From assembly GCA_002705995.1 (NCBI GenBank), contig PAJI01000005.1, positions 100,050 to 134,217 on the forward strand: a DNA stretch of 34,168 nucleotides, read 5' to 3'. The position numbers were made by a program, and so were the translations under genes. The stretch comes from Crocinitomicaceae bacterium (GTDB lineage Bacteria > Bacteroidota > Bacteroidia > Flavobacteriales_G > Salibacteraceae). Below the pieces are notes generated by a model. It was not told the DNA's origin, searched no databases, and saw nothing but the letters and a program-made list of their open reading frames with translations. How positions within the stretch are numbered: the first letter of the stretch is position 1; every line of letters begins with the position of its first letter. Shown piece by piece: positions 31,825 to 34,168 of this stretch.

Positions 31825-31840
31825 TGTGACAAAAATCACT
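31825..31840. promoter_or_regulatory. CRP/FNR-type palindrome upstream of TsdA-like gene
   Basis: TGTGA-CAAAAA-TCACT matches the CRP-type consensus TGTGA-N6-TCACA at nine of ten positions. It is centred about 40 bp before the start inferred from the imperfect -7 element GACTTTTG (31862-31869), which is the usual place for a class II activator site. Bacteroidota carry several CRP/FNR-superfamily regulators; which one acts here is unknown. Confidence 0.5.
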
Positions 31841-31901
31841 GTATGGAGACGGAAGTAGATAGACTTTTGCATTACTAGTCAATCACATAAATCTTGTAAG
31901 C

Positions 31902-33029
31902 ATGTCACAAATGGATCCCATGAAGGAACGTCCTACCGGAGCACTCATTAGCACGGTAACAAAGTTGATCAATCTGGTTCTGCTACTTTTGGTTGCTATT
32001 GTGGCCATTACAGTAGCTTTTTATTCATACGATAAGCCACTTTTTACCATTAATTGGATTGAGGGATCAAGTGATGTTTCTTCAGAGTCAGCTGTAGGAA
32101 CAACCGATTCAAAAGAACAACCTGAAAAAGCTTCTTTTTTTACCGAAATACATAATCCGTTAGAAGAATTAAAAGAGCAAACAGATCTTAACAGTGAATA
32201 CATAAAGTATGGTTACCAGTTAATTTCTGAAACTTACAAATACATAGGTCCAGAAAATGGAGATGCTAAAATGGTTTACACGGGCAATAATTTGGCGTGT
32301 AAGAATTGCCATTTAGATGCTGGACAAAAAAAGTTTTCTGCTCCATATGTTGGTGTTTTTGGTCGTTTTCCACAGTACCGTGGCCGTGAGAATACTATTG
32401 GAACACTCCAAGACAGGGTAAATGGTTGCATGGAACGCAGTATGAATGGAAAAAAACTACCGGTTGACGGAAAAGAAATGACCGCAATTATGGCTTACAT
32501 GAAATGGGTAAGCGACAAAGTTCCTACAGGAGAAAAAATTGAAGGCTCTGGGTTTGTGAAGGTTGAAATTCCTAACCGAAAAGTAGACTTGGCTCATGGA
32601 GAAGAAGTTTATAAGATGAAGTGTGCTTCGTGTCATGGGGTTGATGGGCAAGGAATAAAAATGCCTAGTGGTTTGGGGTATACCTATCCTCCCCTATGGG
32701 GAAATGATTCATACAATCACGGAGCAGGCATGAACAGAGTGCTAACAGCAGCTCAGTTTATTAAGGGAAACATGCCATTCGGAGCTACTTCTGAAAATCC
32801 AATGGTTACTGATGAAGAAGCCTACGATGTTGCTGGGTTTATTGATTCGCACCAGCGACCAAAGAAAAAGAATACAGAAAAAGATTATCCCAAATTAGAA
32901 CGCAAGCCTGTTTCAGCTCCTTACGGACCATATGCCGATGAGTTTAGTCAGGAACAACACCAATTCGGGCCGTTTCAAGAAATTATGGCCTATTACGAAA
33001 AAGAATATAATCTCAAGAAAACCAAATAA
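31902..33029 (+). CDS. Membrane-anchored dihaem cytochrome c, TsdA-like (thiosulfate dehydrogenase/tetrathionate reductase family)
   Basis: Protein of 375 residues with one N-terminal membrane helix (about 20-41), a Ser/Glu-rich linker and two c-type haem domains. Haem 1 is CKNCH (133-137), followed by the TsdA-like block TLQDRVNGCMERSMNGK, where Cys176 corresponds to the axial Cys ligand of TsdA. Haem 2 is CASCH (241-245), with PPLWGNDSYNHGAGM and the NMP segment (Lys288, Met291) giving the distal ligand. TsdA enzymes interconvert thiosulfate and tetrathionate in the periplasm. The membrane anchor and the C-terminal extension beyond 320 differ from classic soluble TsdA. An OprD-like porin gene follows after 14 nt, and a CRP/FNR-type site precedes it. 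Confidence 0.85.
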   Translation: MSQMDPMKERPTGALISTVTKLINLVLLLLVAIVAITVAFYSYDKPLFTINWIEGSSDVSSESAVGTTDSKEQPEKASFFTEIHNPLEELKEQTDLNSEYIKYGYQLISETYKYIGPENGDAKMVYTGNNLACKNCHLDAGQKKFSAPYVGVFGRFPQYRGRENTIGTLQDRVNGCMERSMNGKKLPVDGKEMTAIMAYMKWVSDKVPTGEKIEGSGFVKVEIPNRKVDLAHGEEVYKMKCASCHGVDGQGIKMPSGLGYTYPPLWGNDSYNHGAGMNRVLTAAQFIKGNMPFGATSENPMVTDEEAYDVAGFIDSHQRPKKKNTEKDYPKLERKPVSAPYGPYADEFSQEQHQFGPFQEIMAYYEKEYNLKKTK

Positions 33030-33043
33030 GAGCCTACCTCGCA

Positions 33044-34168
33044 ATGAATTGGATTAAAACACTATTTTTTCTATTTCTTTCAATTACTGTTATTGCCCAG
33101 TCAGAAGATAAATCGTCTTTGTTAAAAGCACTCAAAGGTGGAAAAACCGAAGGGTATTTCCGAAGCTTTTGGATGTATACGGATAATACAGATGACCTTA
33201 AGGATTATAACGCCTTGGCTGTAGGAGGGAAGTTGAAGTATGAAACCGGGAAATGGAAGGGATTTAGTATTGGAGCAGCAACATATGTTTCAATCAATAC
33301 GGGAATCTCAGACATGTCTGAAACAGATGAGCAAACAGGTAGGTTGAGTCGCTATGAATTGGGATTGTTCAATAACATGGATCCGGCACAACGCGAAATT
33401 GTATTGCTGGGTGAAGCTTATTTAAAATATAACACCAAATCTACCGAGCTTACGGTAGGGAGGATGTTATTGAAAACACCCTTTCTAAACCCTGAAGATG
33501 GCCGGATGATACCCACTTTAGAACAGGGAATTTGGTTTAAAAATCAATCGCTAAAACATTATACATTTCAGTTAGGAGTGTTAAACGCCATAGCGCCCAG
33601 ATCAACAGATCGTTTTTATTCTATAGAACACAGTTTAGGAACCTATGCCGTAGGAAGAAATAACGATGGAACAACCAGCGGGTATTCAGGAAATTCCAAT
33701 TCTGACTATATGGCAATCGGAGCTATTCAGGCAAAGTATAAAGGAATCAACATTCAACTATGGGATTATTACCTAGACAATATTTTTAATACTGCTTACC
33801 TAGAAGCCAATGGCAAAACAGCAATATTGTCTTCTAAACTGAACTTGTTATACGGAGCACAATATTTACGACAAGATAAAGTAGGAAACGGAGGAAGTTC
33901 AACTGATGGAGAACGCTATTTCGATCAGGATGAAAGCAATGTGTTTGGAGCAAAATTAGGGGTTGATTATAACCGCTATGAAATTGTATTAGCTGCCAAT
34001 CACATCACCGATGACGGGCGATTTTTATTTCCAAGAGAATGGGGAAGAGAAACGCTCTATACTTTTCAGAAAAGAGAACGAACAGAAGGACAATCAGATG
34101 CTACTAATGTTTTACTAACAATTGGTAAAAAGCATGAGCTAAAATCAGGTGCAAAAATTGATTGGAGT
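33044..34168 (+). CDS. OprD-like outer-membrane porin (C-terminus cut by window edge)
   Basis: The frame is open to the right edge, with 375 codons visible. Signal peptide MNWIKTLFFLFLSITVIAQS (1-20). The mature start LLKALKGGKTEGYFRSFWMY and the later pattern of short alternating strands fit the OprD/porin family: ALAVGGKLKYETGKWKGFSIG, YLKYNTKSTELTVGRMLLKTP and GINIQLWDYYLDNIF. It lies 14 nt after the TsdA-like cytochrome gene, probably in one transcript, so it may admit the cytochrome's substrate or a related carboxylate or sulfur anion. The missing C-terminus would hold the last strands. The substrate cannot be read from sequence. Confidence 0.8.
   Translation, partial: MNWIKTLFFLFLSITVIAQSEDKSSLLKALKGGKTEGYFRSFWMYTDNTDDLKDYNALAVGGKLKYETGKWKGFSIGAATYVSINTGISDMSETDEQTGRLSRYELGLFNNMDPAQREIVLLGEAYLKYNTKSTELTVGRMLLKTPFLNPEDGRMIPTLEQGIWFKNQSLKHYTFQLGVLNAIAPRSTDRFYSIEHSLGTYAVGRNNDGTTSGYSGNSNSDYMAIGAIQAKYKGINIQLWDYYLDNIFNTAYLEANGKTAILSSKLNLLYGAQYLRQDKVGNGGSSTDGERYFDQDESNVFGAKLGVDYNRYEIVLAANHITDDGRFLFPREWGRETLYTFQKRERTEGQSDATNVLLTIGKKHELKSGAKIDWS

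Follow-up and report, generated by a model that had tools for sequence, protein, structure and literature searches.

At the right-hand end of a 34,168-nucleotide stretch of the genome of a Crocinitomicaceae bacterium (contig PAJI01000005.1, positions 100,050 to 134,217; hereafter the window), a gene for a TsdA-like dihaem cytochrome is followed by a gene for an OprD-like porin, and a palindrome of the Crp/Fnr type stands in front of both. What does this pair of genes do, and what switches it on? The first-pass annotation of the window had proposed a regulated cytochrome-porin unit acting on thiosulfate or tetrathionate. The present analysis indicates that tsdA and the porin gene probably constitute a two-gene operon within a sulfide/sulfane-sulfur regulon of Bacteroidota, governed by a Crp/Fnr-type activator. 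The two-gene unit with its Crp/Fnr-type site was thus borne out, and its regulator is more likely the Crp-type protein of a sulfide cluster in the same genome.

The tsdA gene (31902 to 33029, forward strand) encodes a protein of 375 amino acids, which Pfam, phmmer, a predicted model and Foldseek identify as a membrane-anchored dihaem thiosulfate dehydrogenase/tetrathionate reductase. The ATG of the porin gene, at 33044, lies 14 nt beyond the tsdA stop (33029), as first reported. Recognized by Pfam OprD and by extension of its open reading frame (ORF), the porin gene has 456 codons, of which the first 375 are in the window (33044 to 34168, forward strand); its stop codon ends at L020:7464, equivalent to window position 34414. 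A queuosine-biosynthesis gene ends 101 nt before tsdA, and because the gene after the porin is on the opposite strand, tsdA and the porin seem to make up the whole operon. A TsdB-like partner was sought among the ORFs adjoining tsdA, and none was found.

By sequence, by fold and by every active-site residue examined, the cytochrome is a TsdA. Pfam SoxA-TsdA matches it with 49.6 bits (cut-off 27), phmmer aligns its residues 126–322 with AvTsdA (4wqc) at an E-value of 4.9e-54, and its AlphaFold model (pLDDT 90) matches 4v2k in Foldseek with a TM-score of 0.88 over the target and an rmsd of 1.5. Identity as SoxA was rejected, the NCBIfam SoxA equivalog giving 78.3 bits against a cut-off of 110. 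The ligand pattern first read from the letters was found again: the haem 1 motif C133-K-N-C136-H137 (32298 to 32312), Cys176 (32427 to 32429), the haem 2 motif C241-A-S-C244-H245 (32622 to 32636) and K288-G-N290-M291-P292 (32763 to 32777) on the distal side of haem 2, assigned by motif and alignment, all on the forward strand. Cys176 is the predicted distal ligand of haem 1, a prediction from its alignment with the corresponding AvTsdA Cys, since the model holds no haem. Both haem motifs are kept in all 45 aligned rows (window protein included), and so are R162, R172, C176, S180, G276, R279 and M291, which correspond, in that order, to R109, R119, the ligand Cys, S127, G221, R224 and the haem-2 Met of AvTsdA when counted by hand along the phmmer alignment. 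R172 is the equivalent of Arg119, and S180 that of Ser127, which only TsdA has. The thiosulfate-binding and haem-ligating residues of AvTsdA are those given in PMC4423706. Conversion of thiosulfate and tetrathionate is the predicted activity.

The question of control begins with the palindrome TGTGACAAAAATCACT (31825 to 31840, forward strand), the TGTGA-N6-TCACT of the first-pass annotation, which is of the same kind as sites before tauE-PDO and sqr-cydAB elsewhere in this genome. It had been placed at about −40. That figure was rejected as a distance to the ATG, from which 61 nt separate it; it holds relative to the predicted transcription start. A −7-like element, GACTTTTG (31862 to 31869, forward strand), starts 21 nt after the operator, and this offset puts the palindrome around 40 nt before the predicted start. 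The Bacteroidota −7 consensus is TAnnTTTG, and class-II CRP activators bind at about this distance from the transcription start. Scanning the tsdA region for sigma-70 promoters gave nothing above shuffles.

The frequency of the palindrome would allow it to be a chance match before an operon that is constitutive or otherwise controlled. Within the window its count is not significant (0.33 expected; at least one in 23 of 100 shuffles), genome-wide it shows no excess over a reversed control (20 versus 39 for the 15-mer, 14 versus 13 for the 16-mer), and directly before tsdA there is no clear enrichment among 83 relatives. However, it is the location of its copies, not their frequency, that lends the palindrome weight, and we regard a chance match as unlikely. 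Seven of the 14 genomic copies of WGTGAN6TCACW are intergenic, compared with none of 13 copies of the reversed pattern (Fisher 0.006), and six of the seven are 55–78 nt before an ORF start. Five of these six promoters have a TAnnTTTG match of at least 5/6 starting 20–22 nt after the site, which occurred in none of 2000 letter shuffles, whereas offsets away from 20–22 nt gave at most one promoter with a −7 match. For tsdA, tauE and sqr the offset is exactly 21 nt, the same type of 16-mer being involved, and in other genomes, too, operators of this kind stand beside regulators and sulfur genes, as described below. The same operator type was seen before a 1-Cys peroxiredoxin gene (C27:26254), a 172-amino-acid lipoprotein-like ORF (C4:178860) and an MFS-like ORF (C11:63320), the latter two named by eye.

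Which protein, then, would use the site? On the contig that carries tsdA, 250 kb off, a further sulfur cluster starts with a Crp-type regulator gene (C5:383521). The site TGTGATGAATGTCACT lies 44 nt past the end of this gene and is followed by tauE, PDO-rhodanese, rhodanese, usp, pmpA, a second OprD porin (porin2) and pmpB; farther along, the site TGTGATGTTTGTCACT precedes an SQR-like gene and cydA-cydB. The PDO, a persulfide dioxygenase, was named by its two domains and its 59–60% identity to the L060 protein, and the SQR-like protein gives 216 bits with the nearest SQR model (cut-off 525). The genome also encodes a cbb3 oxidase, with subunit I above the cut-off. The clustered regulator matches HTH_Crp_2 with 36.7 bits (cut-off 27) and has the recognition helix TSREVxSR, that is, a Crp-type helix-turn-helix with the Arg180-Glu181-Arg185 pattern in CRP numbering. 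A search of this regulator, which contains unread residues, gave no match to a cyclic-nucleotide-binding-type domain; its homologue in the genome G011 has one (43.8 bits, cut-off 27.5).

The site might instead be bound by a cAMP-CRP or by an FNR homologue that senses oxygen, so that the operon would answer carbon or oxygen status. The E. coli CRP pattern is TGTGA-N6-TCACA, which the palindrome resembles, and the clustered regulator itself has a weak match to NCBIfam CRP (49 bits, cut-off 266). Nevertheless, the Crp-type gene that ends 44 nt before the tauE-PDO site, and the sulfur genes beside its relatives at 16 of 28 loci outside this genome and G011, make such control improbable. The clustered Crp-type protein, the one Crp/Fnr gene product of this genome that was examined, is the more likely regulator of tsdA. 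Because the likely regulator is the sulfide cluster's own, the inducer is predicted to be sulfide or sulfane sulfur and not oxygen limitation.

Regulator and operator also occur together elsewhere. A consensus, TGTRAY-N4-RTYACA, was drawn from seven regulators that lie within sulfur clusters or close to one (alignment A2), together with the sites near them. Of the 395 genomes of the class, 234 gave a match to a profile of the regulator family (E ≤ 1e-35). The 30 best regulator loci, minus our own (L172) and that of G011, a seed (L170), leave 28, in 16 of which a PDO, TauE, PmpA/B, Usp or SulP relative is located within 1 kb of the regulator. An operator matching at 11/12 or better is found in the flanks of 11 of these 16 (shuffle mean 0.24, maximum 3, in 500 shuffles), compared with 2 of the 12 loci without a sulfur neighbour (shuffle mean 0.16). 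The flanks include 20 nt of the end of the regulator gene, as sites overlap the stop codon; without these the count is 7 of 16 (shuffle mean 0.22). In six other genomes, picked because their regulators already showed a site, exact TGTAACN4GTTACA occurs 17 times and the reversed pattern three times. Fifteen of the 17 were read in context, and eight adjoin PmpAB, TauE-PDO, PDO, rhodanese/regulator or SQR genes; two of the eight (L204 and L209) were known beforehand, so that 6 of 13 new sites lie by sulfur genes.

A listed regulator lies within 5 kb of tsdA in at least 8 of the 92 genomes with tsdA, the listings being compared by eye; among the matches listed these are G011, G157, G183, G199, G212, G221, G243 and G339. 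In L053, L057 and L058, tsdA is in one gene run behind regulator and operator, and sites directly before tsdA appear plausible by eye in L064, L092 and L095. The L053 cluster, which belongs to the culturable Fulvivirga marina, holds the porin gene as well. Since the operator is unconserved directly before tsdA but is present or run-linked in some loci, tsdA joins the regulon by lineage. Conservation of the palindrome in relatives, whose absence the first-pass annotation would have counted as a refutation, is thus not general before tsdA itself and is seen as regulator-operator pairing beside other sulfur genes.

The recognition helix [T/S]-S-R-[E/V]-x-x-S-R is present in all 35 regulators examined, our own with unread residues among them. 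According to Ebright and colleagues, Glu181 of CRP reportedly governs operator base 7, and Val in its place shifts the preference from G:C to A:T. At least one half of the operator has the G in 5 of 5 sites of Glu-type regulators and in 3 of 14 sites of Val-type ones (p 0.005); the rows are related and few in number, so that this and the following p value serve as guides only. We incline slightly to the view that Bacteroidota have a dedicated Crp/Fnr-type activator, acting at TGTRAY-N4-RTYACA, that would detect sulfide or sulfane sulfur and govern SQR, PDO, PmpAB, CydAB and, in some lineages, TsdA-porin, its recognition residue (Glu or Val) setting TGTGAY versus TGTAAY. A Cys in a GE-x-C stretch, invariant in the seven seed regulators, was considered as a sensor mark. 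It occurs in 29 of 35 regulators, but L184, L193 and L199 lack it despite their sulfur neighbours, which leaves it no more than a hint.

Several results weigh against the operon's membership of such a regulon. In our own genome the regulator gene is 250 kb from tsdA, the SQR and PDO are below NCBIfam cut-offs, the −7 element of tsdA is only a 5/6 match, and the 20–22 nt range was picked after the offset had been noticed. Three of the seven intergenic sites precede the peroxiredoxin, lipoprotein and MFS genes, which are not obviously related to sulfur; the MFS-gene site has no −7 element, and no ORF starts within 250 nt of another of the seven. In other genomes, 5 of the 16 regulators with sulfur neighbours are without an operator, and 7 of the 15 perfect sites read lack an adjoining sulfur gene. 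Directly before tsdA in the 83 relatives, matches of at least 11/12 number three (1.1 expected, shuffle maximum 4) and those of at least 10/12 number 12 (12.9 expected). G011, of the same family, has regulator, tsdA and porin clustered, yet only a weak 9/12 site. Furthermore, the regulator of L024 is of the Glu type, yet sites of the TGTAAC type lie near SQR and PDO genes farther from it, and with these two sites the covariation falls to 5 of 7 versus 3 of 14 (two-sided p 0.056).

The direction in which TsdA would work is a separate matter. The same operon could encode a tetrathionate reductase, with tetrathionate entering through the porin as an electron acceptor at low oxygen, as in Campylobacter jejuni TsdA. 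The K-x-N-M arrangement at haem 2 is that of CjTsdA (K252, N254 and M255), an enzyme that favours tetrathionate reduction, and differs from Lys208-Met209 of AvTsdA (PMC5146829). In our alignment M291 occupies the distal place of haem 2 in 45 of 45 rows, K288 is kept in 41 and N290 in 43. The TsdAs of Helicobacter fall in the same 73-row group as the window TsdA on our tree; however, this tree is a quick one with a midpoint root. The Asn254-to-Lys exchange in CjTsdA produced no shift to an oxidation bias (PMC5146829); because of this the motif is unreliable for direction, and we dropped it as the feature that fixes it. The PDO, the SQR-like gene and the oxidases in the same regulon or genome indicate sulfide oxidation. 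Tetrathionate reduction is therefore possible but rather doubtful, and oxidation is somewhat more likely.

The porin is recognized by Pfam OprD with 53.3 bits (cut-off 25) on its in-window part, in agreement with the first reading. Because it is incomplete in the window, a full-length homologue, L053, 42% identical to it in porin alignment A3, was modelled. The L053 model has 18 strands of at least three residues, and its best Foldseek matches are OccD3 (3syb), OccAB4 (5dl8) and OccK1 (2y2x), with E-values down to 9.5e-21, although its identity to the Occ/OprD members listed is just 11–17%. The Arg-rich stretch GRFLFPREWGRE (P-R-x-W-G, then R-E-R-x-E-G) varies little or not at all among 12 aligned tsdA-linked porins and could line the pore.

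We infer thiosulfate or tetrathionate as the porin's substrate. A general or organic-acid porin, downstream of tsdA by happenstance, is a less probable though serious alternative. OprD/Occ porins carry mostly carboxylates or amino acids, and the low identity to the listed members leaves room for such a cargo; on the other hand, a second OprD porin is inside our own PDO-PmpAB cluster, and the tsdA-porin pairing recurs. Gene order was surveyed, as the first-pass annotation had suggested, in two sets of tsdA loci: 80 named loci, and the 30 best loci, our own included, from a profile search of the class, whose genomes (G numbers) may overlap species also present among the named loci. Of the 80 loci 7, and of the 30 loci 9, have such a porin no more than 50 nt downstream of tsdA, and for a limit of 1.5 kb the counts are 8 and 14, respectively; the share in the 30-locus set is not a fair rate, because three of the five profile seeds are porin-paired. 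On a quick tree of 109 TsdAs, rooted at the midpoint and omitting L104 (our own copy) and L088 (a broken frame), the porin label is found in 24 rows, including L098 and L099 with the porin 2.1–2.3 kb downstream. It takes 12 changes, at least seven of them forced by supported branches, from which we conclude that the pairing recurs across the TsdA tree.

A mechanism in keeping with these results can be outlined. The Crp/Fnr-type activator (C5:383521) would bind TGTGAY-N4-RTCACW around 40 nt before the transcription start and turn on the genes that oxidize sulfide (sqr-cydAB), oxidize and export persulfide (PDO and TauE) and transport sulfur (PmpAB), together with tsdA and its porin. TsdA, tethered to the inner membrane by one helix, would convert thiosulfate and tetrathionate on the periplasmic side at haem 1 (His137/Cys176), while haem 2 (His245/Met291) would pass electrons to or from the cytochrome c pool. 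The porin would let the sulfur oxyanions across the outer membrane.

In Acinetobacter baumannii, FisR controls PDO1, SQR and TauE, BigR controls yeeE-yedE-pdo2, and CydAB and AhpCF rise under sulfide (PMC7315123). The jobs covered by FisR and BigR, and by CstR of Staphylococcus aureus, are those found here, namely PDO, SQR, TauE and a YeeE/YedE pair, and in our genome cydAB and a peroxiredoxin gene are among those with the site. In contrast, the regulator here is of the Crp/Fnr type, whereas FisR is a sigma-54 activator and BigR and CstR are repressors; the regulon here also adds tsdA and porins, and belongs to the Bacteroidota. As for a FisR, BigR or CstR family member regulating the operon, the gene adjoining the cluster is Crp-type; no search extended to the genome's other regulators. 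The regulon probably works like those of FisR and BigR without being a member of them and, if real, would be a third design next to FisR and to the repressors BigR and CstR. As in the PmpAB and SoxT/YeeE transporters (PMC11582611), there are two short YeeE halves, which adjoin tsdA or PDO; here they are tied to a Crp-type operator.

Our search of the open-access literature, among the matches listed, turned up no Bacteroidota sulfide-oxidation regulator, no description of a Crp/Fnr-type sulfide or persulfide regulon of Bacteroidota, and none of a TsdA-porin system. The enzyme is of a known kind, and the operon is likely a member of a regulon that looks undescribed. Sulfidic sediments and guts are common habitats of Bacteroidota. 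The operator makes the regulon readable from genomes and links TsdA and two porins of the OprD family with the handling of sulfide, which suggests an outer-membrane route for thiosulfate or tetrathionate.

Compared with AvTsdA (4v2k and 4wq7) and CjTsdA, the window TsdA has the same fold, the Cys at the ligand place of haem 1, the active-site Arg and Ser residues and the haem-2 Met, and it shares K-x-N-M at haem 2 with CjTsdA. It differs from both in its predicted N-terminal anchor, in an ordered C-terminal extension beyond the AvTsdA match, in having no second cytochrome gene adjoining and in its porin partner. The TsdBA fusion of Marichromatium purpuratum (5lo9) matches residues 124–345 with its TsdA part, including some of the extension; the window protein has no TsdB domain, and a membrane helix instead. 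The porins here resemble OccD3, OccAB4 and OccK1 in Pfam OprD and, for L053, in the 18 strands, and differ from them in the low identity, in their own conserved stretch like GRFLFPREWGRE and in their sulfur-gene neighbours.

The anchor and the extension had been considered distinctive, a view we rejected, for both are ordinary in the TsdA group of the window protein. The predicted anchor helix (residues 13–44; 31938 to 32033, forward strand; hydropathy 3.01) was placed from the model, and a hydrophobic N-terminal segment is present in 80 of 85 tsdA loci. The extension (residues 323–362; 32868 to 32987, forward strand), past the end of the AvTsdA match, is modelled with a pLDDT of approximately 95–98, and its residues P343, D346, H353, G356 and P357 are kept in 45 of 45 rows, including those of Helicobacter and Pseudomonadota.

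Nor is TsdA scarcely described in Bacteroidota, as had been supposed: it has been published for Cecembia (PMC6704655) and for Bacteroidetes bins (PMC7887784), and we found it in 92 of 395 genomes of the class (own included; E ≤ 1e-30). A search of 80 relatives (own included) with the window TsdA gave a match in 17, of which five have true TsdAs (our own, G011, G054, G060 and G075) and 12 have short haem-domain matches only. Neighbours on the strand of tsdA and no more than 1.5 kb to either side of it, named from Pfam/NCBIfam, were counted in the 80 named and the 30 best loci, respectively, as PmpA (11 and 14), PmpB (10 and 14), PDO (10 and 3), TauE (6 and 3), DsrE (38 and 6) and SoxB-like (4 and 14). 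The TsdA tree divides into two high-support groups of 36 and 73 rows with different neighbours, which also differ in the residue preceding the ligand Cys (mostly N-D-C or N-G-C).

In Flavobacteriaceae, tsdA is followed by a protein of around 225 amino acids (L021:7029-7706 and 30 more of the 80 named loci), often with a DsrE protein next. It has a Tat-like N-terminus by eye and no Pfam match, and its match to the NCBIfam 'thiosulfate dehydrogenase' model NF052225 is weak (29 bits, cut-off 300); it is possibly a second thiosulfate enzyme. SoxB-like proteins near tsdA (L139:5177-6982 and L099:7146-8828), with 240 and 274 bits against a SoxB cut-off of 550, are candidates for a tetrathionate- or thiosulfonate-handling step. 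The first of these belongs to a compact sulfur island (G054:C1:26500-36600, L139) comprising tauE, pmpA, pmpB, tsdA, porin, dsrE, rhodanese, soxB-like, LysE-like, thioredoxin-like and PDO genes, several of the small ones named by eye.

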